Below, piece by piece: positions 1-19,774 of a DNA stretch of 25,738 nt; the stretch's first letter is position 1, and each line of letters starts with the position of its first letter. Below the pieces are notes generated by a model, which ran no database searches, was not told the DNA's origin, and saw only the letters and a list, made by a program, of their open reading frames with translations. Made by a program: the position numbers and the translations under genes. The DNA comes from Asparagopsis taxiformis. Taxonomy: Eukaryota; Rhodophyta; Florideophyceae; Bonnemaisoniales; Bonnemaisoniaceae. Location of the stretch: positions 1 to 25,738 of the forward strand of contig JALQPE010002684.1 of the NCBI GenBank assembly GCA_030407315.1, read 5' to 3'.

Positions 1-1060
1 CCTAACACTGTTTGACGAGGTTGCTTTCTGCGGTGGTGATCTGCGATCGTGAAGACGACTTATAGATCCGCTTCGGGTAGCGGCAGTTCCCTTCGCTAAA
101 ACTTGGTTGGTGCGATTTCAGAGCATCAGACAGTTCATCCTAGCCCCAATCGTCCACAGAGTCATCTGTTGTAATTGATGTACGTGTTGGAATGCGCGAA
201 GAAAGAGCTGGGTGGGGAAAGAGTTTGGATGGTAGAAGTGTCTGGCGGATGGTAGAAGGTGGAGAATAGTTGGGCTCGCACTTGAAGCATTACGAAGACG
301 CAAGGGCTGACGAGGAGTGGGGAGAGGATCGGTAAGCGAATGCGAGGACTGTCATTGAGATTAGTGTGTCTGTCGACGATACTTGAGCAGATAATAGTGG
401 TGGTCGAGGCGGAAGGGCAGGAGTGGCTGTTGCAGAGGTGCGACGGGGGTGGCTTGAGCAACAAGACGAATATCGGAAGAAGTTGACTCCTGAGAACTGC
501 GCTCGGAAAATTTCTGGGAAGCTGGCGATGTTTTTAGCTGTGTGCACTGGAGGAAATGACGAAGATGAGGGCACCGTTGGCGAATTATGCGCTTCCGAGA
601 GGCGAATTCGAGCGCCACTTTGGGTGTGTTTACGAACATCTGAAGTATGGTTTTGATCAGACAAAGGCTGAGGAAGCCATGCGAATGGGCGGTAGAATTT
701 GGTGGTGTTAGTTGTGTCGTTTCTGGTGATGCCATTATAAAAAATTCGCCAGAACAATTGTTTCCGCTTGAGTAGAATTGATTTCGCCCAAGTTGGCGAC
801 GGAAACTTGCGGTGAACAGGCGGGGAAGAATGCACGGAAGAATACGCAGAGAGCACTTACGACGCGCGAAAAGCTGAGAAATGTGTGACTATCACTCATG
901 GAAGACGTTGAGGGCGGAAGGGAACACATTGCAGAGGGAGGATGTGCGAGGCGGGAGGGAGAGGGAATAATTTCATGGCCTTGATGGGTCATGCATGCAC
1001 GGCTTACAGAACATGTGCATCTGGCAGTTAAATGGCCGGCGTGCTTCCAGTAGAAAGCCG
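1..1060. other. No recognisable gene
   Basis: Several reading frames are open here on the minus strand, the longest about 188 codons (290-856). Their translations are Ser/Pro/His-rich, overlap one another in different frames and resemble no family I know. The plus strand has only short frames. I see no RNA gene and no repeat. It is best treated as intergenic or as unrecognisable decayed sequence. Confidence 0.5.
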
Positions 1061-1062
1061 CC

Positions 1063-1127
1063 GGCCGCGGGTACAAATTGATCACATGTCACAATTCAAA
1101 ATTGTGACTCAAAATTTTGTACCGGCC
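1063..1127. repeat. Interrupted inverted repeat
   Basis: The outer arms read GGCCGCGGGTACAAA and TTTTGTACCGGCC. Nested inside is a CACAATT/AATTGTG hairpin at 1090-1106. The word GTGACATGTTGTACC follows at about 1160 and partly mirrors the left arm again. This could be a small miniature inverted-repeat element. No target duplication was identified. Confidence 0.4.
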
Positions 1128-1419
1128 TGTTGTGCTTCAATTTCAAGCACACCCCTCCGTGACATGTTGTACCTCCCGCCAAAAGTGGCAGTGTTTCGGT
1201 TGCATACTTTGAGCATAATGTGCACAATGTGCACAATGATTGTGTACATGTGTGTACTCGAGACGCCATGGCGTGGATGTCTTGGCGGTGCTCATTGTAA
1301 TTCACGCTCAACAGTGCGTGCATGCCGACGCGGACATCAGCACACGACGGAGCATGTGATACGTCCATGCATGGACTGCATCACACACTCAACGTGCAAA
1401 TAGGATCTTATAGCAGTCC

Positions 1420-1790
1420 ATGCCTGGAGCATATGACTGTAAAGGGGTATAGGAGTGGGGAGCATGTATGACACGGATGGTTGTACACATAAGTGTGTGG
1501 CGTTCGAGAATCAATAAGTGGAGCAGTGTATGGTCGTCGGCACTTTGCAATACGGCGTGTATGATTGTACAGGGTATAGGAGCGTGGAGCATGCATAGCA
1601 TGGATGGATTTACACATATGTTTGCATGAGTCTGTGGCGTGCATGGATGGGTGTACAAAGAAGTGTGCATGAGTCTGTGGCGTGCATGGATTGCACGGAA
1701 GGGTGTACAAATAAGTGTGCATGTCTGTGTGGCGGCAGTGAAGCAATCAGTGCAACAGTGCATGCACGTCACAGCACTTTGCAATATGAA
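1420..1790. repeat. Degenerate GT-rich tandem repeats
   Basis: The phrase GGGTATAGGAG followed by GGAGCATG and a TGTACACAT-like word recurs about 128 bp apart (1445 and 1573). A second motif, GCATGAGTCTGTGGCGTGCA, recurs at about 1624 and 1668. The words CAGTG and GCACTTTGCAATA end two of the units (about 1540 and 1780). The minus-strand open frames here are Cys/His/Thr-rich products of the repeat, not genes. Confidence 0.6.
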
Positions 1791-1861
1791 TTATTATGAA
1801 TGAGTGAGTGGCATTAAAGAGATTCTGAACGACATACATTTATGTGAACGGTCTTACCAAC

Positions 1862-2944
1862 TTATTTAAACGATGGCAACTGCTCTCGTACTCGATCACA
1901 GGTTGCACCATCTAACTTTCCGTCCACTAGCGAGTCAAACGTTGTAATCACCGAAGTAAGCGCAATTGTGTCAATCCAGGGTGTAGGAGTGCCGAGCACA
2001 AAGCACGGTTTGTACCTACTCCGGTAGGAGTCAGCGTCCGTTTTGGTGTACCAATGAACCATCAATTTTGCGATACGGTTTCCCTTGCGCGTAATTCTAT
2101 GTGTTCTCGCCACCCAGAACGGCTCCTCATCCGTACACTGATCCCCTTTGACCACCAGAAACAACTTCTTTCCCGATTGTGTAGCACTCAGAAGACTCGG
2201 CGGCGCCGTTTCTTCGTGAATCGAAAGCGTCTCCGAATTTTCGGACTGTTGCACGATGGGCTTTTCAGTAGCTTTGGAGGGTTGAAACTGCTGCTCAGCA
2301 CGCGATACTTCATTTTTGTCCGTAGGCTCAGCACGCGACACTTCATTTTTGTCCGTAGGAGATTGCGGCTGTGTTTGCGTCGCTAGATGTTTGTCCATAT
2401 CAGATTTCTGTGCACTGAACGTGTCAATGTGCGAATTTTTCGGCGCGGATTGATGCGCTTTGTCTGCCGGCAAGCGTACTCGATGGTGAGGAGATGGAGA
2501 GCGGAGTCGCATACAGCGCTCACAACGTTCACACTCTCCCCCCTTTTTTTTCTCGATCGCCAGTTGCGCAGCTTTTTTCAGTGGTTTTTTGTTTGACCAC
2601 TGCATCTCGCGGGAGAAGCCGAATACCTGCGTTAAGAATTGATAGCAGACGGCACTCCCGCGATATGCGTACATTTCCGACACCGGCTCATATAACGATA
2701 CTAAGTAGCGCTGTCGTCTCGTACGGTCATACTCAACGACTCGAAATGAGTCCCTTACTAGATCTTCGCTGGCAGCAATTTCGAAGCAGCGCCGGGAACA
2801 GCATTGTACCTTGTGCAATTCTCCATCTTCGAACTTTTTCGCTATGATTTTTGCCCTGTTCAGATTTCTCTTCCTGATAGAGGACACCTGTCCTTTCATC
2901 GCGAAAGACAGTCGGTCTATTTTAGATCCTGATGATTCGGTCAT
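1862..2944 (-). CDS. Intact DUF7869-related protein lacking the catalytic core
   Basis: A 360-residue open frame starts at ATG 2944. The N-terminal part (about residues 45-130) has a CC-x3-CF motif, then a DRTRRQRYL-x-SLYEP stretch and GSAVCYQFL-x5-FGFSR. These align with the same landmarks of the DUF7869-like gene at 7474-9924: CCNKGCF, DDRRRYL-x-ALLEP and GKPVCCEFL-x5-FKFSR. The middle (about 140-245) is a low-complexity Lys/Gln/Ser-rich linker with a duplicated TDKNEVSRAEP unit. The C-terminal part (about 260-360) has VVKGDQCTDEEPFW and VHWY, matching AVNGEDCTTEMPFW and VRWY of the other copy. The DUF7869 core (VDGADQ, VDNCTREN, GHTHADID) is absent. What I see is a core-less relative. I infer a DNA-binding or regulatory accessory protein, or an internally deleted transposase. 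The C-terminal module resembles chromatin-reader folds (BAH/chromo-like), which is weak. It is divergent from the ParB-methylase gene. Confidence 0.7.
   Translation of the reverse strand: MTESSGSKIDRLSFAMKGQVSSIRKRNLNRAKIIAKKFEDGELHKVQCCSRRCFEIAASEDLVRDSFRVVEYDRTRRQRYLVSLYEPVSEMYAYRGSAVCYQFLTQVFGFSREMQWSNKKPLKKAAQLAIEKKKGGECERCERCMRLRSPSPHHRVRLPADKAHQSAPKNSHIDTFSAQKSDMDKHLATQTQPQSPTDKNEVSRAEPTDKNEVSRAEQQFQPSKATEKPIVQQSENSETLSIHEETAPPSLLSATQSGKKLFLVVKGDQCTDEEPFWVARTHRITRKGNRIAKLMVHWYTKTDADSYRSRYKPCFVLGTPTPWIDTIALTSVITTFDSLVDGKLDGATCDRVREQLPSFK
2293..2358 (-). repeat. 33-bp tandem duplication inside the linker
   Basis: Two copies of a 33-bp unit begin at 2293 and 2326 and differ at about one base (GCGATACTT versus GCGACACTT). 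The unit length is a multiple of three, so the duplication adds 11 residues (TDKNEVSRAEP) and keeps the 360-residue frame open. Confidence 0.9.
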
Positions 2945-4241
2945 TGTTGATGGAGGTGGTATGGGGCGAAAGTGTCGGGGACTTGCAGCACATGTCCTGC
3001 TTTATACCAGAACGGGAACCAGCTTCTAATCAGTTATAAACGTTCAGGATGTAAATATGTCACAAATGAGCGCTTTCTGTACTTTTCGGAACGAGATGTA
3101 TTCTTGAATTATGAGCCTTGAATCCATCGATCTCATTGGACGCCCGGAACTCTCTTGAATTGAAGGATTCCAGCGTGCCAGTCGTAGTTCAACCAGCAAT
3201 GACTGTGGAAAGACATGTTATCTGTCTGATCTCTAATCCGAATACTCTTGGTGGGAACGATTCATTATCTGCTCCCGTTATTATTCCACATGTTCGTAGA
3301 ACAATATTCTGTTCATTGAATGGAGTCATAATGTAAATGTTCTACCATTTATATGTATCAAGGTGCATGCTATTGCACCTGAACCTTGTAAACACCATTT
3401 TAGTTGTACAAAAATCGAATCAAGCTTCTGTAGTTTGAGAACAGTACAACGTACTACTTTTCGGCAGGCCTGCTTTGTGCACCGTTCAAGCAATAATAAT
3501 GTTCTTTCGGTCTGAGTTTCTATTTCTAATATGCATTGTTTATCGTCTAAGTTGCAGTGGGTAGGAATGTACTCTAAGGTGTAATGTAGGATATGGAATG
3601 TATTAAGGGATGAAAGAAACCTGGTAGCTGCGCTGTTTACTGAAAAATGGCATTGCAATGGGGAAATGAGAATGGGTTTTTCGGTGTGCAAGATACTCAG
3701 ACCTGTTCGGTAATATTGGTATCGGAGGGGAAGGTGGCGAAACCTGTTCAGACATTCCTGCTATTAGCAGCGAAAAGATGATGTGTACGGCCCATTTCCT
3801 GTATAGGAAATAGTCCTGGTGAGATGGGCCATTCCTGGGAAATATGAAAAAAAATATGCCAAGTGTTGTGAGCAATATAGCAAATCAGATTGCCAAATCA
3901 TTCCATCATCTGGATAGACACGGCCCGGCGCAATATAATTTTTAGAATACCCCGCTACTGATATTTCTGACTGGTAATCATTGGGAGAGTGCTTGCGTCT
4001 CCTATCCACTTCAATTGTCTTCCGAGCAATGGTAACCACGATACTCGGGCCACCACCGCCGTCGTAATCCGGTTTGAGCCGTGTCGTGTCCTGCATGGCC
4101 AAGATGCTTCACCATGCATAGTACACTGGCCCAAAACCGAAATGACCGTTCACATTGGATCCGTTTGGGCCAGTGTACTATGCATGGTGAAAGTACACTG
4201 TACTTGAGTATGGCGTTCATGACAATCATTTCAAGTCCTTC
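2945..4241. other. Divergent intergenic region
   Basis: This 1.3-kb stretch separates the minus-strand core-less protein from the plus-strand ParB-methylase gene and so should carry both promoters. No open frame here is convincing. The best is a minus-strand frame from ATG 4096 to 3764 (about 110 codons) with no family I recognise. A small hairpin (ATTTCCT/AGGAAAT) lies near 3795-3812, and a long hairpin lies at 4108-4191. Confidence 0.5.
4108..4191. repeat. Perfect 28-bp inverted repeat, 28-nt loop
   Basis: The left arm 4108-4135 begins TTCACCATGCATAGTACACT. The right arm 4164-4191 is its exact reverse complement. A short palindrome, AAGTACACTGTACTT, follows immediately at 4190-4204. It sits about 50 bp before the first plausible start of the ParB-methylase gene. 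It could be a foldback scar or a binding site. Confidence 0.9.
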
Positions 4242-7200
4242 ATGCGAAAGTGCGAGAAATTGATACAGAGTTTTATAGCTTCTGTTTCCCCTTCATTTCT
4301 TACCCGGCACTTCATTATTTCAGAACTGGATGACATGACGAGATTCTTCAAGAGGAGTGGGTCCAGAATCAGTTCCAAATCAGGTCCTCCAGAAGAGGAA
4401 CCGGGTACTTCCACCATGAAGCACACTAATACCGCCTTATTTGCAGACGTCATGGAAGGGTCTACGAACACACGTGTTGATCCGCGGGCATGCATCCCAC
4501 TCACTGCTGTTCGACAAGTAGTGCGCTCTGGTGTGTTGCGATTGAAGTCGATATTTTCTGGAAACATAAAGTCAGCACAATGTCAAGAACAAGATGAAAC
4601 AAACGGAATTGATGGATTCATTTCGGGCTCCGACAATGCGATCGTAGTCGAGTTGGACCGGGTCGTTCCAGCGCCACATTATTGACTTTTTCAAAACGAT
4701 ACGCGGTCCTCAGGGTGATTTTCTTTCTGACAGTGAGGCGAAAGAGAAGTCCGAATGCCGTTCCGTTTGGTACGGAGTTGTTGACGGTATGCACAGACTG
4801 ACTGCAATCCAGGAGTTAATGGATGAGAACCCGGAGAGGTGGGACTCTTTTATGGCCTGTCACGATACTGAAAGGAGGTCATTCTATCCAAGTTCTGAAA
4901 CAACTAGGCAGACATCAGAACCGTAAGCATGATGCAACATTATATGTCGAAACCACGTTCTATGATATCCTGAGCGGAATGAAAGAAGAAGCCCACCGGA
5001 TGCAGAGCATGACCTCAAAGCCACCTACAGCCAAACAAGTTGCTGCCGCATATGATGGTTGCTCCCACCTCAAGGATAACACCGTGAGACAGACTGCTGC
5101 GACGGCATTGCGCCTTCCTGTGCGAGTGATCGAAGAGATTGGAACAATTATGAATTCGGAGCATCCAGACTTGGCAGAACCTCCTTCTAGCAACAGTATG
5201 GCATTGAAAACTCGGAGAAAGGGTACTAATACCCCAATGACAAGCGTTGACTGTCGCGTGTATCGCAAATTTGTGAATTTAACATCTTTGAAATCTGCAA
5301 CCAAGTTCATGAATGCTTCGGGTACTGATGCTGAAGAAGTTCAAGTTCATACTCTTTACAGGCTTCGGGGAATCTCCAGATTGAATAAATTCAAACCAGT
5401 ATCATACAAAGATACCCTCCAGCAATACGAATACACATGCGCAGCGATGAAAGAAGCGCGTAAGTTCGAGGTTCTTCATGAAGGACAGGTATGGCCAAAG
5501 GGCATGGAATCAATCAAGCAGAATCTACTTCGCTCATCAAAGTTCGATACTGATGTTATGGAGAACATGGGAAACGATTATAATATTCTGGATGCTCTTT
5601 TGAAGCAGTACCGGAAAGTTTGCCCTCAAATTGCTCCCATGAAGGAAAAGAAGTATCGGGAAAGCCATCGAAAAGACCCAGATCCCGATTCTTTCTGTCA
5701 GGAAATTGGCAAGACGGCAGCCGATAACGAAAATGCAGATACAAGGGACGCGAAAGAAGAGAAACAAAAAGATGTCTCGAAGGAAGATAGTGTTCCTCAA
5801 CTAGGCTCCGAAATATGTGATGAGGATATAGTCTCGGTACCGAAGATGAGCCAGATAACGCAAGAATCTGTACAAGATGAAGTTGACGCTTCCGAAAAGG
5901 TTATCACCGGACCGAAAACTTCTATTCCAGTGGACCGAATGATAACAGAGAACGATGTCTCTGCTTCACCTAGTATCAACTCAGACCGCCTCAACCTTCA
6001 TTCTAAACGCGGTTCATCTGGTACGAATGAGCCAGAAAGAAAAGACTACGTTCTTGAAATGGGAATTACATGCTATCAGATGAAATGGCAGGACTTCGAC
6101 AAGGAAATATGGACAGATGAGTACCCTCTTCAGGATTTAGTTCTTACCGACCCTCCGTATGGAACTCCGAATTCTAAATCCCTTCGTAATACCGCATATA
6201 ACAATTTCATAAGTGATAAGGAAATCAATGCATTATGCCAGTTTGCAAGGAGAGCCTTGAAGCCAGGTGGCTGGTTTTTCTGTTTTGTATCATTCCGAAA
6301 CTTTCCAGCATTCCTGCATGAGCTGAGAAACGTCGGTTTCGACGGTCCGGAATACCCTTTCGTATTCATGAAAGACACGAACACTGTACAAGCACATCGC
6401 GGAGATATGTTCCCACAAAACGCGTGCGAGTTTGCAGTTGTTGCCAGGGCTCCCGGACATCGTAAGGACGGTTTCAAGCCAGACCTTCGAAGCCAATATC
6501 ACCTCGTCCCAACAGAAACGAAACGGAAATTCGCTGCAATGTCCAGAATTCCCGTTTCGAAAGACAAACTTCTCACTCCAGGAACAAAATCTCCTGTTCT
6601 AACAGAAGAGAAAACATATTGGAATGTTATCCGAGATAATCAACACGTTTTGTCCTGAGAGGGTTTCAGTTATTGATGTTTACGGAGGAACACTTACTAC
6701 TGCGATCGCAGCGATGAAGACAGCCCGTTCATGTGTGGTTGTGGAAGCTAGTACCAAGATTTTCCGTCTCGCTCATGAAAGACTTCGTTCTATTGCCGAT
6801 GCTTTGTATCATAATGATCTGAGATCACGTATCGGATCGAAGAAGAGGAGAACAGGGAATCATGCAGAGGATGGCGTTCTGCTAAGCCAACCGAAAATCT
6901 GTTCGCTACAGAAAAAGGGAAAAGATGATAATACAAATGCCGGTAAATCCACTATCGAAGGAATAGAGAGAGTACTGAAAGGAGGAGATTCTGTTGAACT
7001 ATACATTTTGGATCAGGTCGTCGGAAAAGCGTCTCTCCTTTGTGCAGGAACTAGTGATGAGAGGTTCCAAACTACAATACACAATGTACCTCTAGCGAAC
7101 TTTCAAGGTGAGGATCAGAAACTTGTATCTTGTTATATGTTCGAACCGAACGAATGTTGTTTGGATTGTCCTTACCCGTACAAATACGGTGGTATTGAAC

Positions 7201-7274
7201 CTCCTCCTGGAACTTTGAAAGGGCTGAACGGGATATTCGCATGGGACTTGAACAAGATGAGGCCGTTGTCTTAG
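4242..7274 (+). pseudogene. ParB-like domain fused to adenine-type DNA methyltransferase, frameshifted
   Basis: One gene of about 1010 codons is read in four frame segments. Segment 1 (4242-4685) ends in ISGSDNAIVVELDRVVPAP. Segment 2 (about 4680-4850) carries VVDGMHRLTAIQELMDE, the DGxHRxxA signature of ParB-like nuclease/NTPase domains. Segment 3 (about 4850-6620) begins WPVTILKGGHSIQ and carries LTDPPYG (D at 6149), methyltransferase motif IV. Segment 4 (about 6640-7274) has VIDVYGGTLTTAIAA, which is SAM-binding motif I, and a Cys-rich tail (CCLDCPYPY). Motif IV before motif I is the beta-class order of N6-adenine/N4-cytosine methyltransferases. A Lys/Glu-rich linker lies before the methylase. 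The expected role is sequence-guided DNA methylation; the substrate is unknown. Frameshifts lie near 4680, 4850 and 6620-6650. Junctions are too tight for introns, so it is a pseudogene unless the assembly has indel errors. Possible starts are ATG 4242, 4336 or 4416. The DUF7869 gene follows on the same strand after 199 bp. Confidence 0.82.
4680..4850 (+). other. ParB-like domain segment (third frame)
   Basis: This stretch has no long open frame of its own and is easily missed. Its middle frame reads IIDFFKTIRGPQGDF, then WYGVVDGMHRLTAIQEL. The DGMHRLTA motif is the conserved core of ParB/sulfiredoxin-fold domains. It joins the end of the upstream segment (VVPAPHY) to the start of the methylase segment (WPVTILKGG), which places one frameshift on each side. 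Confidence 0.75.
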
Positions 7275-7473
7275 TCTTATTACGTATAGTTTCGCTCGGC
7301 CTTCAGAGAGGAAAGATTGTTGTCATTTTTCCCCGTAATCATGGCGCATGAAGAGCACAAATCAACCAATCAGCCGTACTCCATTCACAACAGAGATTGA
7401 TTTGACATAGGTATTTGGCGCTGTATCCTGGCCAACTATCGCCGTCGAGGAGGCCACTCTGCATCCATATTAG

Positions 7474-9924
7474 ATGAACGTCTCACCGGTGTCATTCCTA
7501 CTCACCATGCATCTTGATCAACCGATATACTCGTCTTGCAGCCATCTCTTTTCCACGCTACCTGCAAATCTAACTACCGTTCAGAGATCATTCGTTCTGC
7601 TCCCACAGCAGATGGCTCCGCGTTTTCATCTCGCCGAAGCTAGGAATGACGCACTGGAGAAAGCCGAATCATACATGAAATCTCTTTCTAGGGACTCCGA
7701 ATCAGAACACGCTCCTTCTGTTGAAACCATATCTATGCCGCGTAGCCACGATGAAGTGATGCATGGAATAGTGGGTACTTCTTCCGACTCTTTCCGATCC
7801 ACGGCTTCGATGTATAAACCATTTTCACGACTACAACACAGGAAGAATTATGAAAGTGTGACGAGGTCCAGTTCAGTTCGTCGAAAGAGCAGCATGCTAG
7901 AGAGGCGGGTGAAGTTCAGTTTGTCACTGCCCAAAACAGATATAAGAAGAATACCATGCTGCAATAAGGGATGCTTCAGAAAAACCGACCATGTTTTCCT
8001 TCGGAATGAAGCAGAACGAGTTTTGTTGTACAACAGGGACGATCGCCGCAGGTATCTGCACGCTCTACTGGAACCAAACAGTAACCGGTTCTACTTCTCT
8101 GGGAAGCCTGTGTGTTGCGAATTCCTCGAGTTCAGCTTCAAGTTTTCACGACACCTGCAGACCTCGGTAAAGAAAGCTTGCCAGAATGGGAGTCTTCCAT
8201 TTATGGCTTCTCCGAAACGAATTTCTGGCTCTCCACATAGAGATGCAGTGATCTGCTTCCTTGAACGCTTGTCTGCCTCGACTGCTGATATGATGCCAGA
8301 CAGTGGAGAGAAGCATCTGCCTCTTTTCGAGAAGAAGGCTGTGTACGAGATGTTCTGCGACCAATTTACGTTATTATACTCGAACCGGAACCCACCAACT
8401 TTGAGCTACTTCTACAACACCTGGAACACGTTTTGCGCGAATATCAAGGTTCGGCGTGTCCAGAGGTTCACGAAATGTTCGGAATGTGAGTACATACGTG
8501 ATAAACTGGAAGCCATCGGGACAGATATTCAACGCACTGCTCCGCTTCTGAACGTCGCCAGCGTCATATCGAGATGGTGGCACGGGAACGCAGGGAGTAT
8601 CAAAAGAAGTGTGAAGAAGCGTCACTATATCCCTCCAGGTTCACGTCTCTGATCGTAGACGGGGCTGATCAATCAGGATACGGTCTTCCCCATTTCACGG
8701 TATGTACAAAAGCGACTGTTGGTCATAGTTTGAAGGTGAGACTCATAGGTGTTCTCGAACATGGTGTCCGAAAGCATCTTTCGTTGTACACACTTACTGC
8801 TGAATTCGAAACTGGGCAAATCATATCATCGAGGCAATTCACAGGACTCTTACCAAAAAGGCTATGGGTTCGAGTCTTCAGGGAACACTGTACTTGCAGG
8901 TAGACAATTGCACAAGAGAGAACAAGAACACGTTTCTGTTTTGCTATCTAGAATGTCTCGTTGCTTGGGGTGTGTTTGAAGAAGTACACGCTTCTTTCCT
9001 ACCCATCGGCCACACCCATGCAGACATCGACCAGGCCTTTAGCTGTACCTCTCGCAGGCTACGTTCCCACAACGCCGTCACTATGGAAGATTTAGTTGAA
9101 CAACTCAGAGTGTCCTATACTCGGAACCCTCTGTCTCTCGTATGTTGCACGTGGCAAACTTCTCCGGTCTCTGCCGGAGTGAGAATTCGGTTGGAAAAGT
9201 GCATGCTTTCTCAAAATTCAGATACTTCAGGTTTCACCGATCCCAAGATACAGGAAAAAGTTATGACTTCTACAGAACTGCATGCGATGTTAAGATATTT
9301 TGTGAAGACAACTGGAAGCCTCTCCCAGTTCTCACTCCGGGGCTGAATGGTTTCCTGGTTAAGCCTCCTGAACTGAAACGAACACCGAGTAATATCATAC
9401 GTTCTCCTCCAGATCGACATGAGGTCCTGCTCCGTTTTCGTTCGGAAGAGAGCAGGGTCAATAACAATTCTAAAATAGATCAGCTACATGAGCTTCTACG
9501 ACAGGTTTATGAGGAAAGGGAAGATTCTTTTCATTGGAACCTCACCGAATGTTTCGAGATGAATGGCATGTATCGAAAAGGAATCGGAACGTCGTCCCGA
9601 TGGAGGAGGAACTCATGTCGACTGCAGATTGCATACCACTATCAGACTTGCCCTACTGGGTGAATCGCTTCGTGGCTGTAAATGGAGAAGACTGTACTAC
9701 TGAGATGCCGTTCTGGCTAGGACAAATTATGAGTTGTAAGAAAAACAACGAAGGGGTTATTTGTCAGCTGTGTGTTCGGTGGTACGAGGTCTACGATGGA
9801 AGAGACGCATGGTCAGGTAAGTATAGGCCTGCCATGCTTCGCAAGGGGAGAACAACAGTAGGTGGAAGGGACATATTCGGTTGACACCGTCATTGCAGAG
9901 TTCCCTTCACTAACAACAAGATGA
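7474..9924 (+). pseudogene. DUF7869 transposase-like protein, five frameshifts
   Basis: The first frame runs 7474-8652 from ATG 7474 (or 7612). It holds a Cys-rich N-terminal domain (CCNKGCF, GKPVCCEFL) and a middle region with KCSECEYIRDKL. The core continues in a second frame (about 8540-8880) with ASERRQRHIEMVARERREY and LIVDGADQSGYGLPHF, then a third (about 8880-9140) with LYLQVDNCTRENKN and FLPIGHTHADIDQAFS. These are the hallmarks of the DUF7869 family, and the three acidic motifs suggest an RNase H-like nuclease (inference). A fourth frame (about 9140-9540) holds VGKVHAFSKFRYFRF, and a fifth (to about 9860) a C-terminal module (VNGEDCTTEMPFW, VRWY). A last shift restores VDTVIAEFPSL, matching the end of the protein at 1862-2944, with a stop at 9922-9924. 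Frameshifts are near 8540, 8880, 9140, 9540-9600 and 9860. The probable role is transposase or integrase, now dead unless the indels are assembly errors. Confidence 0.82.
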
Positions 9925-10102
9925 TAAGAGCTGGGGTAGAGAAAGAGATCAGGTCAGGCCTGGCGTCTATTCCGAAGTAAAAACGCCTCGTCTTCGACGA
10001 CACGAGTAGTTCAATCAACTTTGTTATCCTATTCAATCAATATGAAAAAACATCTCTCATGTTCAATCAACTTCAGAAAGTTGGATTCTGGTTTGGAAAG
10101 TA

Positions 10103-10115
10103 CACTACGGTGTTG
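10103..10115 (+). mobile_element. CACTA-like terminal inverted repeat, left end
   Basis: The 13-bp word CACTACGGTGTTG is followed by AAAAGGGGGCCTCAGACAGT and then a dense GACAGT/ACTGTC array. The same word occurs in the same orientation at 16411 and inverted at 25690-25702. The 13-bp length and CACTA start match En/Spm-type ends. The preceding bases are GTA. Confidence 0.65.
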
Positions 10116-10118
10116 AAA

Positions 10119-10340
10119 AGGGGGCCTCAGACAGTACGGCGAGACAGTGATTTTTACTGTCTGAGACAGTAAAAATCACTATGCGGCAAATGAAAATTAA
10201 TGCCACACTTGGAGACAGTGATTTGCACTGTCTGGCAGACAGTACGGAACACTGTCTGCAGACAGTAAAAAACACTGTCTCACCGTACTGTCTGAGGCAA
10301 TGAATGGAGACAGTAAAAATTAATGATTTATTCAATAGTT
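10119..10340. repeat. Irregular GACAGT/ACTGTC palindromes (subterminal)
   Basis: Repeated inverted words such as GACAGTGATTTTTACTGTC and CAGACAGTAAAAAACACTGTC occur every 20-40 bp in both orientations. They resemble the subterminal motif clusters that bind the accessory transposition protein in CACTA elements. The binding role is inferred. Confidence 0.75.
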
Positions 10341-10460
10341 GGATATGATGTAATTTACTGTACTGGGCAGTGTTGGCGGATAGTGTTTTGTATTGGCCAA
10401 GGCAACATGGCCGGATAGTGAAATACGCTGCCTGGGACAACAGATGGAACCAACACGGTG

Positions 10461-10865
10461 CACTGTCCTGGGTAGTACCTGGAGACAGTGATTTTCACTG
10501 TCCTGGCCAGTACCTGGAGACAGTGATTTTCACTGTCCTGGGTAGTACCTGGAGACAGTGATTTTCACTGTCCTGGCCAGTACCTGGAGACAGTGATTTT
10601 CACTGTCCTGGGTAGTACCTGGAGACAGTGATTTTCACTGTCCTGGCCAGTACCTGGAGACAGTGATTTTCACTGTCCTGGGCAGTACCTGTAGACAGTA
10701 TTTTGTGCTGTCCTGGGCAGCACCTGTAGACAGTGTTTCGTGCTGCCCTGGGCAGCACCTGTAGACAGTACTTTGTACTGCCCTAGGCAGCACCTGTAGA
10801 CAGTATTTTGTGCTGCCCTGGGCAGCACCTGGAGACAGTAAAAGTAGTGTCCTGATATAGTAAAA
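10461..10865. repeat. 35-bp palindromic tandem repeat, 11 units
   Basis: Units start at 10481, 10516, 10551, 10586, 10621, 10656, 10691, 10726, 10761, 10796 and 10831, a strict 35-bp step. Each contains a GACAGTGATTTTCACTGTC-like palindrome preceded by AGTACCTGGA or AGCACCTGTA. In the first six units the linker alternates between GGGTAGTACC and GGCCAGTACC, giving a 70-bp higher-order period. The open frames through this array are repeat translations, not genes. Confidence 0.95.
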
Positions 10866-10869
10866 TTCG

Positions 10870-12640
10870 GTGTCTGGGAGTGGTGGATGAGATGGAGCGT
10901 CATGCTGTCGTGGGCATCTTTTTGGGGTAGATGGAGGCAGTTCTAGTGCTACGAGGATGGGTAATGGATGGTATCTACGTGAGAATGGTCACAATTGTAA
11001 GGCTAGGAATTTTTATTTCGTAGTGACTATGAGCTAGAGAGAAGTACAAGCGGTAGGATAGGTAGCAATCTAAGAGGGTGCAATATGGGAAGCTTCACTC
11101 TGGATTTGTTTATTTGCGCAGGATACATTGAGAGTAAAATATCCCTATGTTAGAACTGCTACTACAACCAACACTATTATGAAGAATAAAACTAAAAGTA
11201 CCAGAAAGTCTACAAATCTATCAACTGATTGCGCTGCATGAATAAGCTAGGAAATGAAGAGAAAGAGGAAAAACAGATGTAGTGAAAGGAAACAAGTTAG
11301 TGACGTTGAATTGGAGTGGGAAACTGATGGTTACCAGGAGACTAACGTACCTTAACGAATACCATTGCATCCCAAATCGAAATCTGTACTCACAGGCAGA
11401 GCAACAAAAATGGAGTAGTGAGAGAGAAAGATGAACGAAAGGAGAATTGGAAAACTCACCGACCGGGAACTTGAGAAAACGAATAGAATACTGGGTTAGT
11501 GGCGTGAAATGTGGTGACGTACCATGTACACTGCTCCGGAAGCGTATACGCTTCCGGAGCAGTAATTATAATTACTGATGCTTTTTCTTCCGACGGATAT
11601 GGAGATGGAAACAGGGATTTCCAGAATCTGTCGTTTAAGTAGCACTCTGCGGGCGGAAAAGACGTGTAGGAGAACAATAGAGGGATGAATTTGAAACGGA
11701 GCGGTGCGATGGGAGGCCCAGAAAAACGATACCTAGGCTGCGAATTACGCTTGGAAGCACATGATCTGGCAGAGGAGGCGCACATTATCGTATCTTCTAC
11801 CGCCTTTTATTGTCTATAATGACGTCATCACTACAGAAATATAGGAAAAACACTAACATATGGGGCCTACAGGACAGGCAGAGGTGAAGAGTAAGAAAAA
11901 TGGCGCACTTTCCTGGACGAGGAGTCCGCGCTTCCAGTGATGATGTGGATGGTATATATCGATAACGTCATTGTATGCTCCGAGTACACTTGGCAGGCAG
12001 TCAAAGCGGGCCACGTGGATGGTGGCGGTTAGGAAACAGCAGTGTCGAAGAATTTTTATAATTTTCATGTTTCAAGCGAGCAGTGAGTCTGCATTGCAAT
12101 ATATAAATGTATGCTAATTTAAGATATCACACCGAGTACGATTCAACGAGACATCGTGTTTTCACCTTGTGAATAGGGCCGAGAATATGGTAGAGTATAC
12201 GAGTAGGAACTACGTGCATGAGAAAATCAGATTCAGTATTAGTGCTTAGAGCATCACTGCGTAACAAACGGAAGTGGATACGTCTTGGCCAGGCTGGTGT
12301 TTAGGGAATGCGATACAAGATAGCAAAACGATATTGAGTAGGTCGAGCCCGGATGAAATAGCAATCATTGTGAATAAAGTAATGAGCATAGGACAAATCA
12401 TTGTGGTGAAACAGTTCATTGGATCGAATGAAAGCCAGGAAAGGTTTCGTAATGGTTGAATTTAGTGGCGGAGAAATATAAAATATAATTCTGCACTATA
12501 GCGGAGAAGTAGCGGAAAAGAGTAAATCTCCTTCAGCAAGCGAGACATGCATCAATATTGCCCAGTATAGTTCGTCTGAAGTGCAAGTTGAACCTCGCAA
12601 AGTGAATATCAGAGGTCGTTGGCTAGTGGTTGAAGAAGTC
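10870..12640. other. No recognisable gene
   Basis: About 1.8 kb of AT-leaning sequence has only short open frames in all frames. The minus-strand frame 11456-11785 has no recognisable content. The one notable structure is the 34-bp perfect palindrome at 11530-11563. I saw no tRNA and no further GACAGT motifs. Confidence 0.6.
11530..11563. repeat. 34-bp perfect palindrome
   Basis: The half-site ACTGCTCCGGAAGCGTA is followed without spacer by its reverse complement, centred at 11546/11547. The sequence is unrelated to the other palindromes in the window. Confidence 0.95.
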
Positions 12641-12647
12641 TGCAACG

Positions 12648-13074
12648 ATGGAGCAATTCTTGAAAGCGGATTTGGCTGCAGGAAACTATTCCGAACAGGC
12701 CAGAGTTCGTGCAGTTCTCTTCGACGGAGTTTCTGGCTGGGTGTACGGTGAAATTGTTGTTCAACGGATCGTTTAGGGGTGCTCCGGACGTCCAAAATTG
12801 TGTCAACCTCGAGATGACGGCGTACTACACTTGTAGCCGTTGGTGGGCCGGGCTGAAACCGAACTCGGTTGGTACCTTTGGGCAGGAATGGATTGCTGGT
12901 TTGTTGGAAATCTTCGGGTACGTGAAGGAGGTGGCCGAGTATTGGAACGTTTCGGATGTGTTGAGGATGCTGGATGGCTCCATTCCCAGCGTGGGTGACC
13001 CGAGCAAGAGCTTCGACATTCACTCACGCGTTTTCGAAGTTTTTGCGCTGATGGTGCCCAAGAAGGGGTTCTGA
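12648..13074 (+). pseudogene. Hypothetical protein fragment, frameshifted
   Basis: An ATG at 12648 opens MEQFLKADLAAGNYSEQA. A shift near 12700 leads into a frame that stays open to 13072-13074 and reads EFVQFSSTEFLAGCTVKL, then MTAYYTCSRWWAGLKPN and, near the end, FALMVPKKGF. The composition is protein-like, with aromatic and hydrophobic residues well spaced and no low complexity. I do not recognise the family. It may be the N-terminal part of the oxygenase-like relic that follows on the same strand, but 260 bp with stops separates them. Confidence 0.45.
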
Positions 13075-13080
13075 GCGGAC

Positions 13081-13275
13081 TTACATCCCAAGGAAGGCCC
13101 TCCCAATGGCTCTAAGTTTGAGAACATCTTTCCCAAACGGAAGTCTGTGTTTTGAAAGGACGCCAGGAAAATGCTCCTGCGCGTAACTGGCTACCGCGAC
13201 ATGTAAATGTGGAAACAATTTTACGTGGTGGACCCACACATCCCACATGCTGCGCTCCCAGTCACATGTGGTCAT
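13081..13275 (-). pseudogene. Possible protein fragment, opposite strand
   Basis: A 64-codon minus-strand frame reads WERSMWDVWVHHVKLFPHLH, then VAVASYAQEHFPGVL, KHRLPFGKD and LKLRAIGRAFLGM. The regular aromatic/hydrophobic spacing looks like real protein. It weakly recalls helicase-associated repeat domains of protists, but I cannot assign it. It lies between two plus-strand pseudogene pieces, so it may have been inserted there. Confidence 0.25.
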
Positions 13276-13337
13276 GATTCCGCCATCCCTTCCCCTTCCA
13301 TTTCCATTTCCCTGACCATCCCTTCATCCTCCATTCT

Positions 13338-14813
13338 TTGCCTTTGAAGAATCCAATTGAGGTAGTACCACCTCAATTAGATTCTTCCAGCTATTCCGAG
13401 GCTGCCTCTGTTTCTGCCACTACCCCTGTCGTGTCTGCATCGTCCGGAGTGGAAACTTCTGGGAAAGTGATGCCCAAAAGGAGTACCTGCCTGAAAGAGA
13501 GTCGTTCCGGTCGTGGTGGAACAGCGACGGCGGGTGGTGCGAGCCCTGTTCAGGTCGTCGAACTGGAGAGCGCACCCAAGGATGCGGGTAAAAGCTCCAT
13601 CCTCGGGAAGCGCAACTGGGAAACCGCTTCTGCGACGCCAGAGCCCTCTACCAAAAAGAGGAAGCTCAATGAGACTTCATCAAAGTCGTCGTCAAAGAAA
13701 TCCAAGTCGGCTTCCAGAGGACGTTCTCGGGAGCCGATTCTCCAGTTCGACGACGCCCATGAGAATCCCATTCCCGACAGTATCGTCGATGAGAATGTCG
13801 CCGCCGTTCTCCCCAGCGCAATTGCGTCTGGTAGCCCGATGAAGTACTACATGGAAATTACGACGGTAGAGACGGTGCGGGCGGAAATAAAGGCGGCAGC
13901 ATTCCTGGCAGCTGCATCACCAGGTGCTGAGGACTCGGTGGTGGAATAGTACTTTGTGGTGAAGCGGCGTTGCTGGACAACATGGGGGTGGTTGTTGTGG
14001 AAGGCCTCTTGCAGTCGTCCACGGCTGGTAGTGCGACGCATGACCTCTTCAGTCACTTTTCTCGGCAGTTCCCGCTGGTTGAGGAGGTTGAAAAGCCACA
14101 GAAACCCTCCCAGCAGTCTGATTCTGATTATGAAGACAGGAAACCACAGGACGAGCCGCCAGCTTTCGCAAAGCCCGGCTTCGATCCTTCGCCGTGGCAG
14201 TTCATCCACAACGTGGGTGATGCGAAGGACCGCATAGATGGTGGTCGTGGGCGCCTCACTCTGCCGCGGCGTGAGTTGTGCGACAAGCTGGAGGAGGGGA
14301 ATTTGGATATGTACAGGAACAAGTTGGTGGCAGAGCTTGCTCTTGGTGTTTGTGCGGATTTCTCGAAGTTGGGAATGGAGGGTGAGGATCCTGTCTTTTT
14401 CCCGAAGACAGGATTACGGCTGCTTCTTAAAACAGATGGGGCTGCGGACCAGGATGGGCACACGGACTTCTGAGTATCCCAATTTTGAGGAGTCGGACCT
14501 ACCCAATCCCCATCCTATTTCATGATGTCGAGCGGAGCCGATGGGTTCTTTATAGTAGCTGCACCTTATAGTCATGTATGCCTGGTCCATACGGACGCCG
14601 ACATGTGGAAGGTTCCCGTTAACCACTTTTATGTGCCACCCTATTCCGTCTTAGTTGATCGCGGTGACCTTTACCATTATGGGGTCGGCTTCAGGTGAGG
14701 AGATCTTCCTGTGGGAGCAGAATTTAGTCTATGGTCTGCCCACGCGCGGCCACATCTACTTGAAGACGGAGAAGGACGTCCTCACGGACCACATCCACAC
14801 CGTCGAATATTAA
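13338..14813 (+). pseudogene. 2-oxoglutarate/Fe(II) oxygenase-like protein, frameshifted
   Basis: The first segment (13338-about 13930) is Ser/Lys/Ala-rich with a nuclear-localisation-like KKRKLNE and a Lys/Ser cluster. It has no ATG at its 5' end, so the true start is unclear. A shift near 13930 enters LCGEAALLDNMGVVVVEGLL (open to 14473), which ends in GAADQDGHTDF. Here HTD would be the first part of the HxD metal motif. After further shifts, 14522-14698 reads SSGADGFFIVAAPYSHVCL and PPYSVLVDRGDLYHYGVGF, offering a second metal His. Then 14697-14813 reads EEIFLWEQNLVYG and RGHIYL, offering a possible 2-oxoglutarate-binding Arg. The order HxD, distal His, Arg fits the superfamily; the assignment is by motif only. 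The gene appears dead, with at least three frameshifts, the last near 14695. The substrate is unknown. Confidence 0.5.
13346..13387. repeat. 42-bp near-perfect palindrome
   Basis: GAAGAATCCAATTGAGGTAG is mirrored by TACCACCTCAATTAGATTCTTC with two mismatched pairs, centred at 13366/13367. It overlaps the start of the Ser/Lys-rich frame of the oxygenase-like relic. Confidence 0.9.
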
Positions 14814-15079: not shown

Positions 15080-15760
15080 TTAGACCTTGACAACCCGTGA
15101 GGTTCGACTATAAGAGACGTTGCTGAGATAACACATGACACAGAATGCTCCTGGAAGCCACTCACAGCCGTACAAACGTTCTGCTGAGCCATGTTCCTGA
15201 CTTCCCAATTCCTTGCTCACCCTTCCCTAGGTGGGAGGGGGACGGAACTCTCAGCCCCTTACAGCGGAAGCCGTTTACCGGGGATTCTTACAGCAAAGTC
15301 ATCGTTACGATGACTTTGCTGTAAGAAAGCGTTTCCATTACAGTGGCCAAAAAAATTTTACCGGGTAAAAAAATCATGGCAGCTGTAATGATTTATTTTC
15401 TTACAGCAAAGTCATCGTAACGATGACTTTGCTGTAAGAAAGCGTTTCAATTACAGTGGCCAAGAATTTTTTTACCGGGTAAAAAATCATGGCTGCTGTA
15501 ATGATTTATTTTCTTACAGCAAAGTCATCGTAACGATGACTTTGCTGTAAGCATCCCTGGTAAATTGCTTCCGCTGTAAGCGGCAGGGACTTCCGTCCTT
15601 TTCCGACCTAGGGAAGGGTGAGGAAGGAATTATGAAGTCAGGAAACAGGGTATAGGAATGGTATGGACGGCTGTAGGCGGCATTAGGTAACACATTGTGT
15701 TGTTTACACCCGGTTTGAGCTGGGTGTTGTGTCTAGTATGGTTGGAGGAGTGTACGAAAT
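15080..15760. mobile_element. Foldback-type element A with nested palindromes
   Basis: The core holds three copies of a 39-bp perfect palindrome (half-site CTTACAGCAAAGTCATCGT) at 15287-15325, 15400-15438 and 15513-15551. They are separated by spacers with ATTACAGTGGCC and a TTTTACCGGGTAAAA palindrome. Outside the core, inverted arms continue: GCTTACAGCGGAAGC with TTTACC near the core, then CTCACCCTTCCCTAGG and TTCCTGACTTC, and more weakly ACAGCCGT and GACACA. The arms match over roughly 170-250 bp per side. No coding capacity is visible. This is a foldback or MITE-like structure. Confidence 0.75.
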
Positions 15761-16220
15761 TTCTACCACGTGGTCGGAAATGGTTCAATTTTCTCACGAC
15801 AGAGATTCTGACTTTCGAAATTCAAACTCGTTAAAGTGGGCTGGAGTTGGTGTGAACACCTCCAGGACCTCTGGGAAGGATCTGGTAACACATGTCCTGT
15901 GACTGCACGCGGTTATCCTCTCTGAAATCAACCATAGATTATCGGAGGGCAAAATCTACTCTTGGTGTCGTGTGGCACATTGACTATACAAAACCGTCTG
16001 TTTCCAGTTTTTATATACTTTACTCTCGAGTAGATAGGATTTCAGCTGTCCAAGTAAAGAATGGGCCATATAAATGTTTCATTTCAACACAAGCATTGTG
16101 CAATTCAACCTCTTCCAGGTCAAAAACTTGTCCAGAGTACACTTCCAGGCCATCGCCTGGGAGCGTACTCTGGACAATTTCTTGGACTAAGTGCACTTTC
16201 AAGTGTATGCACTTGGAGGC
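15760..16220. repeat. Non-coding body segment following array A
   Basis: This segment is repeated in diverged form after array B (about 17270-17560) and array C (about 18310-18600). Shared landmarks are GTGAACACCTCCAGGA-like, ATCAAGCATAGATTATCG-like and GGCACAGTGAC-like words. Its end (about 16040-16220, with GTTTCATTTCAA and CCTCTTCCAGGTC) is related to 18880-19000, just before the 172-bp satellite. Open frames here are short and repeat-derived. Confidence 0.65.
16128..16177. repeat. Hairpin within the body segment
   Basis: TTGTCCAGAGTAC at the left is mirrored by GTACTCTGGACAA at the right, with CTTCCAGGC/GCCTGGGAG pairing inside. The homologous place near 18975 lacks the second arm, so the inverted duplication is specific to this copy. 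Confidence 0.85.
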
Positions 16221-16410
16221 ATCCAGTCCAAATCTACGTCGTTCCGACAAAGTTGAATTTTGGCCATGGCCGAAATTCATCACATCTGCAGTTGTGAGAA
16301 TCTGATGACCAAAAATCGATGCATTCTGCCAGCCCTAATGCGCAAGCCAGAAGCTTTACGGACAGATAAAACACCTTTCTGTACTCCCCAGAGCCACTCC
16401 AGCCCTTATA
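16221..16410. repeat. Solitary diverged copy of the 172-bp satellite monomer
   Basis: It matches the satellite at about 18998-19710 through CGTTCCGACAAAGTT, TTTTGGCCAT, CAGTTGTGAGAATCTGATG, CAAAAATCGATGCATTCTG and CCCCAGAGCCACTCC. It carries a small insertion after TTTTGGCCATGG. A CACTA-like end follows directly at 16411. Confidence 0.8.
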
Positions 16411-16478
16411 CACTACGGTGTTGAAAAGGGGGCCTCAGACAGTACGGTGAGACAGTGCTTTTTACTGCCTCACTGTAC
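16411..16478 (+). mobile_element. Truncated CACTA-like left end
   Basis: Nearly identical to 10103-10150: CACTACGGTGTTG, AAAAGGGGGCCTCAGACAGT, then GACAGTGCTTTTTACTG. The similarity ends within about 70 bp. The preceding bases are ATA. It is evidence that this is a repeat family rather than a chance word. Confidence 0.7.
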
Positions 16479-16479
16479 A

Positions 16480-17575
16480 ATGATCTCCAGGAAGTAGGAT
16501 ATTCTCTAAGCCTAGCACGGGACAGAAAGATTGAAGCGTAGGCATGCAGAAGTATAGAGGCAATAGTATGTGTAGACTATGGCAGTGGTAGAAAAGTATT
16601 TCATGCACGAAAAGGACTGGTAGAGTGGCACTAGAGAAGTGATGCTTAGCAGGAAGGGAGGTGGAGATGATGAAGGAAGACAACAGACATGAGATCGAGG
16701 GTTGAGACCAACGGCTTACAGACGGAGCAGTTTACCAGGGATGTTTACAGCAAAGTCATCGTTACGATGACTTTGCTGTAAGAAAACAATTCATTACAGT
16801 AGCCATGATTTTTTACCGGGTAAAAAAATTCCTGGCCACTGTAATGAAAACGTTTTCTTACAGCAAAGTCATCGTAACGATGGCTTTGCAGTAAGGATAA
16901 AATTCATTACAGTAGCCATGATTTTTTTACCCGGTAAAAAATTCTCCGGCCACTGTAAGAAAAAAATTCATTACAGTGGCCAAGAATTTTTTTACCGGGT
17001 AAACAAATCATGGCTACTGTAATGAATTGTTTTCTTACAGCAAAGTCATCGTAACGATGACTTTGCTGTAAGCATCCCTGGTAAACTGCCTCAGCTGTAA
17101 GCGGCTGGGAGCTTGGTCCCTCCCTCACCTTGGGAAGGGTGAGCAAGGAATTGTGAAGCCGTAAAACATGGCAGAGGGATGGTTTGGACGGCTGTTAGCG
17201 GTGTTGGGGAGCACTCTGCGTCGTGCTAACCCAGTCTGGGCTGGGTGCCCTGCCTGGTACGGCGGGAGGAGTGCACAAAATTTCAAACACAATTTCCTCA
17301 AAAGTGAAATTCTGATTGTCGAAACTCAACCTCCCTAAAATGAACTAGAGCTGGCATGAGCACCTCCACGACGTCTGGAAAGGTACTGACAGCACGTTTT
17401 CGGAGCATTGGCGCAGCTGTTCTCTCTGAGATCAAGCATAGAGTATCCGTGGTCAGATTCTATTCCTGGTGCCGTGTGGCACAGTGACCACACCAAATCG
17501 CCCTTTTTAGCAGACTATAGATTTGAGTTACTAGGAATCTAGCTGCCTTCAATACCAACATAGTTGGTAAGTAGG
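16480..17575. repeat. Tandem unit B (about 1.08 kb) with palindrome array
   Basis: It consists of a left flank with GTAGGCATGCAG and CTATGGCAGTGGTAGA, a palindrome array, then a diverged body. Core palindromes are at 16744-16782 (one mismatch), 16857-16895 (two mismatches) and 17034-17072 (perfect). Spacers carry TTTTACCGGGTAAAA-type palindromes. The array is bounded by inverted GCTTACAG/CTGTAAGC and GTTTACCAGGGAT/ATCCCTGGTAAAC. Landmarks recur 1077 bp later in unit C. Confidence 0.85.
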
Positions 17576-18610
17576 CTAGCCTAGGATTGTAGGAAAATCA
17601 GGAAGGATGGGAGGGTAGGTATGCAGCAACATGAAGGGGGTAGTATGAGTAGGTAATGGCGGTGGTAGACAAGGATTGCACTCACCGAAGGGTCGGCTGG
17701 AGTGACACCAGAGTCGACACAGGAAGGAAGGTTGGGATAGGCTGGGATGAAGCTTCATCCTCCTAGGAGGACAAGAGACATGAGAGAGAGGGTGAGGCCA
17801 GACCGCTTACAGCTGAGGCAGTTTACCAGGGATGCTTACAGCAAAGTCATCGTTACGATGACTTTGCTGTAAGAAAGGAAAAATTACAGCCGACACGATT
17901 TTTTACCCGGCAAAAAAATTCTTGGTGATTTTTTACCCGGTAAAAATTCTTCGCCCACTGTAATGTTTCCTTTTCTTACAGCAAAGTCATCGTAACGATG
18001 ACTTTGCTGTAAGTAAACGTTTCATTACAGTAGCCACGATTTTTTACCCGGTAAAATCCTTCGCCCACTGTAATGTTTTCTTTTCTTACAGCAAAGTCAT
18101 CGTAACGATGACTTTGCTGTAAGCATCCCTAGTGAATTGCCTCAGCTGTAAGCGGCTGGGAGCTTTGTCCCTCCCTCACCTTGGGAAGGGTGAGATAGGA
18201 ATTGTGAAGTCGGGAACATTGTGGAAGGATGGTTTCGACGGCTTCGGGCGGCTTTCAAGAGCAATCTGTGTCTTGTTCACCCGGTCTGAGGTAACTAAAA
18301 AGTTCAGTACTGCGAGAGGAGCACGCAAAATTTCAACCACGATTTTCTCATGACAGAGATTCTGGCGGTCGAAATTCAAACTCGTTGAAATGGACTAGAG
18401 TTGGTGTGAACACCTCTAGGAACTCTGGAAAGGTACTGCCTGCACATTTTCCGAGGGTACAAGAGGCTGTTATCTCCAATATCAAGCATAGATTATCGAT
18501 GCGCAAAATCTACTCCTGGTACTGTGTAGCACATTTACTATACAAAACTGTCCGTTTACCGTTATAATACACCCTACTTTCAATTAGGTAGGAATCTAGA
18601 TATTCACTTT
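17576..18610. repeat. Tandem unit C (about 1.04 kb) with palindrome array
   Basis: It has the same layout as unit B. Perfect 39-bp palindromes lie at 17835-17873, 17975-18013 and 18085-18123. The flanking inverted arms read CCGCTTACAGCTGAGGCAGT at the left and the mirrored CTCAGCTGTAAGCGG at the right. The body after the array (about 18140-18600) aligns with those after arrays A and B. Confidence 0.85.
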
Positions 18611-18880
18611 ACATCGATGATTATGAAGCAGGTTAGGCTAGGATAGGAGGGTAGGCATGGAGTGAAATGAAGGCAGTGGTATGAGTAGACTATGGCAGTG
18701 GAAGACAGGTATTTAATTCACAAGAGGGGCGTGTGAAGTGACACCAGAGGCACGGTGTGTCACAGGAAGGGAGATTGGGATGATAAAGGAGGAGTAGAGA
18801 CTTGAGAGATGGGTTGTTGAGGAATGATTCTAGCTCCAGTACATAACTACATTGCTCCTCTATAGGCTACGGCAATCGAC
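18611..18880. repeat. Partial third tandem unit (left flank only)
   Basis: GTAGGCATGGAG at 18652, the ATGAGTAGACTATGGCAGTG word and the GTGACACCAGAG word repeat the left flanks of units B and C. The palindrome array is missing and the sequence runs into the satellite region instead. Confidence 0.75.
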
Positions 18881-18997
18881 TCCAGCAGTCCAAGAAAAAA
18901 TGGACTATACGAATGTTTCATTTCAATATCAGAATTGTGCAGTTGAGCCTCTTCAAGGTCCGAAAGCTTTCCCAGAGTACGCTTCCAGGCTACTTGA

Positions 18998-19710
18998 AGG
19001 CATCCAGACCACTTGCACATCGTTCCGACAAATTTCAATTTTGGCCATCACATCTCCAGTTGTGAGAATCTGGTGACCAAAAATTGATACATTCTGGCAT
19101 TCCTACCACGCAAGCCAGAAGCTTTGAGTACAATTAGACCATGTCTCAGTGCTCCCTAGAGCCACTCTATCCCTTCTAGACCACTTCCACATCGTCCCGA
19201 AAAAGTTCAATTTTTGCCATCACATCTCCAGTTGTGGGAATCTGGTTGCCAAAAATCGATGCATTCTGTCAGCCCTAACGCGCAAGCCGGAAGCATTGCG
19301 AACGCATAGAACACTTTTCCGCACTCCCCAGAGCCGCTCCATCCCTTCCAGACCAATTCCACATCGTTCCCACAAAGTTCAATTTTGGCCATCATATCTC
19401 CAGTTGTGAGAGTCTGATGGTCAGAAATCGATGCATTCTGTCAGCCCTAACGCATAATCCAGCAGCTTTACGAACGCATAGAACACTTTTCCGTACTCCC
19501 TAGAGCCACTCCAACCCTTACAGACCACTTCCACATCATTCGGACAAAGTTCAATTTTGGCCATCACATCTCCAGTTGTGAGAATCTGATGGCCAAAAAT
19601 CGATGAATTCTACCAGCCCTTCCACGCAAGTCAGAAGCTCCTAGTACAATTAAAACACGTTTTAGTACTCCCTAGAACCACCCCAACTCTTCCAGACCAC
19701 TTTGTAGCCT
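18998..19710. repeat. 172-bp satellite, about four tandem monomers
   Basis: The word CATCTCCAGTTGTG (one base changed in one copy) begins at 19051, 19223, 19395 and 19567, an exact 172-bp step. Monomers also share CAATTTTGGCCATCA, AAAAATCGATGCATTCT, AGCCCTAACGC, CTCCCTAGAGCCACTCC and CCAGACCACTTCCACATCG. The short open frames here are repeat translations. Confidence 0.93.
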
Positions 19711-19774
19711 TTTTCGCGGGGTCCGAAATCGTCTCCTTCTTCTTCCCGAGTGAGAAACATCAGTCCCCCTCAGA

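Follow-up and report, generated by a model that had tools for sequence, protein, structure and literature searches.

Does a bacterial-type DNA methylase gene lying beside a transposase-like gene in a eukaryotic genome belong to a mobile element, and what might it do there? The question is raised by a 25,738-base-pair (bp) stretch of DNA ("the window"), which corresponds to contig C2556 in a genome of 141 Mb and 3156 contigs. An original prediction, made from the letters of the window, had proposed a mobile module composed of a gene fusing a ParB-like domain to a methylase, a DUF7869 gene taken for a transposase, and a divergently transcribed gene of 360 amino acids (aa) lacking the DUF7869 core. 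All three genes were found on the window (Table 1), and the gap of 199 bp stated for the two large same-strand genes was exact (7275-7473). That the module is mobile is strongly supported, since numerous almost identical copies have common ends with terminal inverted repeats and are flanked by 4-bp target duplications, as described below.

Element ends, copies and target duplications

The methylase region was present in at least 40 places of the genome at 99-100% identity, window included (best 40 of 267 candidates), some of which may be haplotypes of one another. The ten other copies that were fetched carried all three genes in identical order and shared a sharp 3' end, beyond which the flanks differed, except for C2664 and C2665, whose flanks were the same. 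At the scale of the genome, at least 21 of the 40 listed methylase matches paired with one of 40 listed 3'-end matches at a spacing of 5316-5376 bp; of the unpaired ones, at least C544, C352, C504 and C2290 do carry the 3' end.

A first search found no 5' terminal repeat within 8 kb upstream. Extending the copies at C1701 and C504 further upstream uncovered the inverted counterpart of the 3' end, identical to it at 45 of 47 bases in the case of C1701, and an element without terminal inverted repeats, or one truncated at its 5' side, was rejected on these grounds. Terminal inverted repeats and both ends were readable in seven elements, the window copy not being among them. Three of these are complete copies of the window family, of 13881 bp (C1701), 13490 bp (C504) and 19205 bp (C1015), flanked by the target duplications CATT, ATAG and CGAT, respectively; the other four, of 16.0-25.1 kb and with related ends, showed the duplications AGGT, TTCA, AAAT and TTGG. 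A 4-bp target duplication was thus present in all seven insertions with both flanks readable, across three families, and the multi-locus comparison that had been proposed for detecting a shared element boundary yielded both common ends and duplications. The methylase gene lay within five of the elements having both ends and the duplication (C1701, C504, C1015, C90 and C589, all longer than 10 kb).

The duplication count does not include C2543 (5' flank as in C1701, 3' end outside the fetched stretch), C994, C2441 and C29 (5' end only), C2123, C663 and C1795 (terminal 13-mer absent at up to two mismatches), C1780 (3' flank ending after two bases, both in agreement with a duplication), C544 and C2648 (without the 5' repeat), or C352, C163, C2664, C2665, C687 and C2290 (5' repeat absent in the fetched sequence). 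Six scored places (C544:26219 and five other contigs, C2648 among the sharers) begin at their 5' side with a different sequence (CAATGACGCTC...) that lacks the terminal repeat, and are read as amplified rearranged copies. Repeats of the form (G/A)TTGATTGA stood beside both terminal repeats of C1701 (L029:9437-10000, L012:3178-3317), two at the 5' and three at the 3' side, and were mirrored in C504; they are candidate binding sites for the transposase or the ParB-like domain.

The window copy and the state of the genes

The copy on the window is incomplete: the contig starts inside the element, leaving its 5' part off the contig, and the final 26 bp are missing after position 10103, unlike the ten other fetched copies, all of which reach the 3' terminal repeat. 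Its methylase and DUF7869 genes carry three and seven frameshifting indels, respectively, which are not found in intact copies, and only the 360-aa gene is open. Compared with the complete C1701 copy, the element on the window had 31 single-base indels and 46 mismatches, while nine other copies showed 1-9 single-base indels, and this excess suggests assembly error or decay of the window copy.

Table 1. Features of the element on the window, with their positions and state.
Feature	Position	Strand	Basis or state
Incomplete transposon copy	1..10103	+	BLAST against a complete copy; approximately bases 3766-13855 of the 13881-base C1701 copy
360-aa gene with two DUF7869 domains (N-terminal Cys, C-terminal BAH-like) and no RNase-H core	1862..2944	-	Open reading frame intact; predicted regulator of transposition
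Perfect 28-bp inverted repeat	4108-4135 / 4163-4190	.	Sequence; 51 bp before methylase ATG
ParB/Srx-like and beta-class DNA methylase fusion gene	4242..7274	+	Intact copies encode 1010 aa; window frame broken
Predicted ParB/Srx-like domain and subsequent helices, motif VDGMHR	4428..5155	+	Sub-threshold Pfam matches, motif alignment
Beta-class methylase domain; DPPY at 6149-6160, S-adenosylmethionine (SAM) motif at 6675-6698	6056..6821	+	
DUF7869 gene, predicted transposase	7474..9980	+	Intact copies encode 837 aa; window frame broken
Predicted RNase-H-like catalytic core; D396 (8658), D478 (8903), D518 (9023), D520 (9029)	8640..9067	+	Model/structural matches
Predicted BAH-like chromatin-reader domain of DUF7869 protein	9648..9941	+	

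Reading frames were compared in 11 copies, that of the window being one of them, with C1701 as the reference: the methylase frame was open in eight, the DUF7869 frame in four and the 360-aa frame in six, one of them with an in-frame deletion; all three were open together in three copies. The rough nonsynonymous/synonymous ratio, based on small counts and with broken copies included, was 0.82 for the methylase (26/9), 0.35 for DUF7869 (37/31) and 0.17 for the 360-aa gene (8/14).

Linkage of the methylase and DUF7869 genes in other families

In order to evaluate whether the two large genes co-occur elsewhere more often than by chance, as had been proposed, a methylase query 36% identical to the window-family protein (P0007) was compared with the genome, giving 47 scored loci (66 match rows; best of 3700 candidates), and the positions were related to those of the DUF7869 profile matches (best 150 of 502 candidates, all above the cut-off). 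A DUF7869 match lay within 5 kb in 38 of the 47 divergent methylase loci, against a chance expectation of 0.7-2.3. Neither of the two outcomes named beforehand as refuting the module, homologues that are nowhere adjacent and the lack of a common boundary, was observed. The number of families is smaller than 47, since many loci represent the same one. Nine groups, defined by identity to P0007 (93, 67, 64, 62, 58, 57, 54, 44 and 41%), included loci with DUF7869 neighbours of their own, and these groups need not all be separate families. None of the listed DUF7869 matches lay within 5 kb in the 59, 53 and 50% groups and at some single loci (C899, C921, C3119).

Two arrangements were observed. The methylase precedes DUF7869 on one strand in the window family, in the 41% group (C90) and at C589, and the two genes are divergently transcribed in the other groups. 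Both C90 and C589 hold the two genes inside ends with a 4-bp duplication. The DUF7869 pieces at C1667 (41% group) and C250 (64% group) were 63% and 54% identical, respectively, to that of the window family. In three of the 38 linked loci (C673, C991 and C2006) the DUF7869 neighbour scored like the window-family gene, and at C673 and C991 the positions hint that one element sits inside a member of a different family. Conversely, 93 of the 150 DUF7869 matches had no methylase match listed within 10 kb, a figure that sets a maximum for elements lacking the methylase, because only matches listed were compared. In the protein database, methylase P0002 and DUF7869 protein P0014 were both on contigs of size 7926, and P0003 and P0020 both on contigs of size 8748, which suggests that the members of each pair are linked.

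Two further observations concern these families. At C673, C991 and C3119 a window-family element is apparently nested between the DUF7869 and methylase genes of a second, divergently arranged family, at similar distances in the three places, which suggests that the composite was itself duplicated. The 64% group makes up 14 of the scored loci, and at C250 it is bracketed by inverted repeats, 99.9% identical to each other and at least 1.9 kb long (L059 and L060 at C250; L061 and L062 at C986).

The encoded proteins

The DUF7869 domain was recognized by Pfam in an intact copy (E 2.9e-49), and the structural model of its core matched SETMAR, Mos1 and retroviral integrases. The four aspartates listed in Table 1 were kept in all 46 aligned sequences, while the best sequence match to solved structures had an E value of 0.073, and the literature search returned no paper naming DUF7869. 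From sequence and model, the protein is predicted to be a DDE-type transposase with an RNase-H-fold core and a BAH-like tail.

For the fusion protein, the two halves of the original description fared differently. The methylase half was confirmed by Pfam (N6_N4_Mtase, 9.1e-12 in an intact copy), and the DPPY motif (motif IV) precedes the SAM-binding motif, with fold and motif order as in CcrM, placing it in the beta class; it is accordingly predicted to be a CcrM-like adenine or N4-cytosine methylase. The ParB half is weak. Pfam gave no ParB hit, and the best matches, DndB (E 0.021) and GmrSD_N (E 0.053), were sub-threshold and each found in three of 11 members; a profile search against PDB with the N-terminal part gave no convincing match (best E 0.3), and ParB was absent among the structural matches listed for the methylase model, a list that the methylase domain filled. 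A DGQHR-like motif of the ParB/Srx type was present to varying degrees among the 11 members (DGMHR in six, DGxHR in eight, DG in all), and it points weakly to a ParB/Srx-like N-terminal part. One homologue, P0010, has degenerate catalytic and ParB-type motifs (EPPA, DGHHIH) and is possibly an inactive regulator. The inverted repeat upstream of the gene may be an operator or autoregulatory site, or a small hairpin insertion; the copy alignments of C687, C504 and C2290 break at this repeat (window 4108-4190).

In the 360-aa protein, residues 42-126 and 262-358 matched the ends of DUF7869 by BLASTP (E 1e-13 and 3e-11; 30-35% identity), with no significant match to the DUF7869 core, and hhalign gave 99.2% for the C-terminal part against DUF7869. 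A diverged core-less homologue of the same outline, P0133, was 36% identical. The protein therefore keeps the outer domains of DUF7869, as described, and given these low identities and the existence of P0133 it is more than a product of a recent deletion within this element. Nearly all of its listed relatives in the genome (best 113 of 1085 candidates) belong to the window family, at 71-100% identity, and among them a diverged form was found only at C1931 and C603 (51-56%), so the core-less gene seems specific to a few lineages rather than part of every methylase/DUF7869 element. Within the gene, an in-frame 33-bp tandem repeat was noted at window 2293-2359; the C352 copy is open and 33 bp shorter.

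Comparison with known systems

This kind of element is already known, since giant transposons with ParB-methylase genes are in print (PMC12477816). According to the accessible passages of the papers cited here, Sola1-1_Ec32 of Ectocarpus is a 21.5-kb giant transposon with a ParB-like/N4-N6 methylase fusion gene of 1104 aa (PMC12477816). Like the window family, it is a giant eukaryotic DNA transposon with one such gene (1010 aa here), yet its methylase lies on the strand opposite to the transposase rather than on the same one, and those passages do not mention a core-less transposase paralogue, which the window family has. For transposons of green and red algae that encode ParB-methylase proteins, the same paper cites Iyer 2011 and Petroll 2025; these are proteins of the same kind, and the host here is also likely a red alga.

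Sola2 elements make 4-bp target duplications, and methylases occur in viral mariner elements (PMC3627910). The Sola2-Fanzor elements of Dictyostelium and Polysphondylium share 4-bp duplications, short terminal repeats and a large transposase with an accessory protein, but their accessory is Fanzor and their duplications are AT-rich, whereas the seven found here are varied (PMC3627910). In the length of the duplication, the feature compared here, the present elements agree with the Sola superfamily. Fungal DNA transposons carrying TET/JBP likewise encode an enzyme acting on DNA methylation, although it is a dioxygenase and not a methylase, and their duplications are of 2, 3, 6, 7 and 8 bp (PMC12730594). 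ParB-fold/N6-N4 methylase fusions are frequent in phages and prophages (PMC12704722). CcrM and the beta-class methylases of phages and plasmids have the fold and motif order of the window-family methylase domain, the phage and plasmid enzymes being 23.5-29.3% identical to it (40 matches listed); the five such genes inspected, of 609-741 bp, are too short for the N-terminal part. As far as the retrieved passages go, the literature search found neither mapped ends of a DUF7869 element nor the two arrangements, nor a BAH-tailed gene without the core.

Setting of the window

The eukaryotic setting assumed for the window was supported by the 141-Mb genome and its plastid genes. Contig C469 of the same genome held 11 of 13 phycobiliprotein family matches, and the light-harvesting family gave only ten matches, a pattern that fits a red alga as host. 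A viral or prokaryotic setting was rejected given the genome size and the phycobiliprotein-rich contig, together with the absence of tblastn relatives in viral_contigs and, for DUF7869, also in genome_contigs. Outside the element, an open reading frame with a glycine-transporter domain (22497-23084; PF03458, E 3e-16) is likely a host gene. A 35-bp tandem array and other repeats on GACAGT motifs occupy 10461-10839 and 25447-25678, the former just past the point where the element breaks off at its 3' side, the latter near the contig end. At 15284-19922, 113-bp and 172-bp repeats that contain the palindrome TTACAGCAAAGTCATCGTWACGATGACTTTGCTGTAA are interleaved with one another, possibly representing a satellite or the ends of other transposons.

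Interpretation

Taken together, we lean modestly towards a transposon with a DUF7869 transposase, a self-marking methylase and a restraining core-less protein. The transposase would cut and paste the element, the ParB-like part would tether the methylase to the DNA of the element, whose copies, once marked, would escape host silencing enough to stay expressed or able to transpose, and the core-less protein, by competing for element ends or chromatin, would limit movement. A more elaborate version, which we consider unlikely, would have a nucleotide-switched ParB-like module load an adenine methylase whose mark both licenses DUF7869 and hides copies from silencing, and the BAH-bearing core-less protein count copies and shut the system down, with some eight or more diverged lineages in one alga sharing the methylase part in two arrangements.

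That the three genes are chance neighbours in a repeat-rich contig, as the damaged window copy and the other repeats around it might suggest, has a negligible probability and is already refuted by the same gene order in ten of ten other copies, the shared ends and duplications, and the linkage at 38 of 47 loci. The methylase might instead be a passenger acting on host or other DNA, altering host expression or protecting against a nuclease without marking the element. The weak recent constraint on its gene, the many DUF7869 matches without a methylase detected nearby and its resemblance to stand-alone phage and plasmid methylases all agree with this. We nonetheless hold it to be rather improbable, as rigid linkage to DUF7869 in several diverged families and two arrangements, together with long-term conservation of the active site, suggests a role useful to the element.

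Dam methylation gates Tn10 transposition, and by analogy the methylase could gate movement here, newly replicated hemimethylated ends being cut so that transposition is tied to replication. The methylase does travel with a transposase-like gene, and the (G/A)TTGATTGA repeats at the ends could be binding sites, but a methylase gene may be dispensable for the movement of elements, and we regard gating as quite improbable. The 360-aa protein could, though probably does not, act as a helper rather than as a repressor, its BAH-like domain aiding in targeting or assembly. Such a helper would agree with the diverged homologue P0133, with divergent transcription from the methylase and with the lowest rough ratio of the three genes. 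The gene is, however, broken in five of 11 copies, and with its diverged form limited to C1931 and C603, other families may move without it. In other transposons, internally deleted transposase genes are known to supply regulators, the KP protein of the P element being an example, and this paralogue without a core but with a BAH tail suggests that the present element carries a regulator of that kind.

A domain of unknown function, DUF7869, is now tied to mapped transposon ends with 4-bp duplications, and the many near-identical copies of a eukaryotic element with a bacterial-type methylase would make the role of transposon-borne 6mA or 4mC (N6-methyladenine, N4-methylcytosine) testable.
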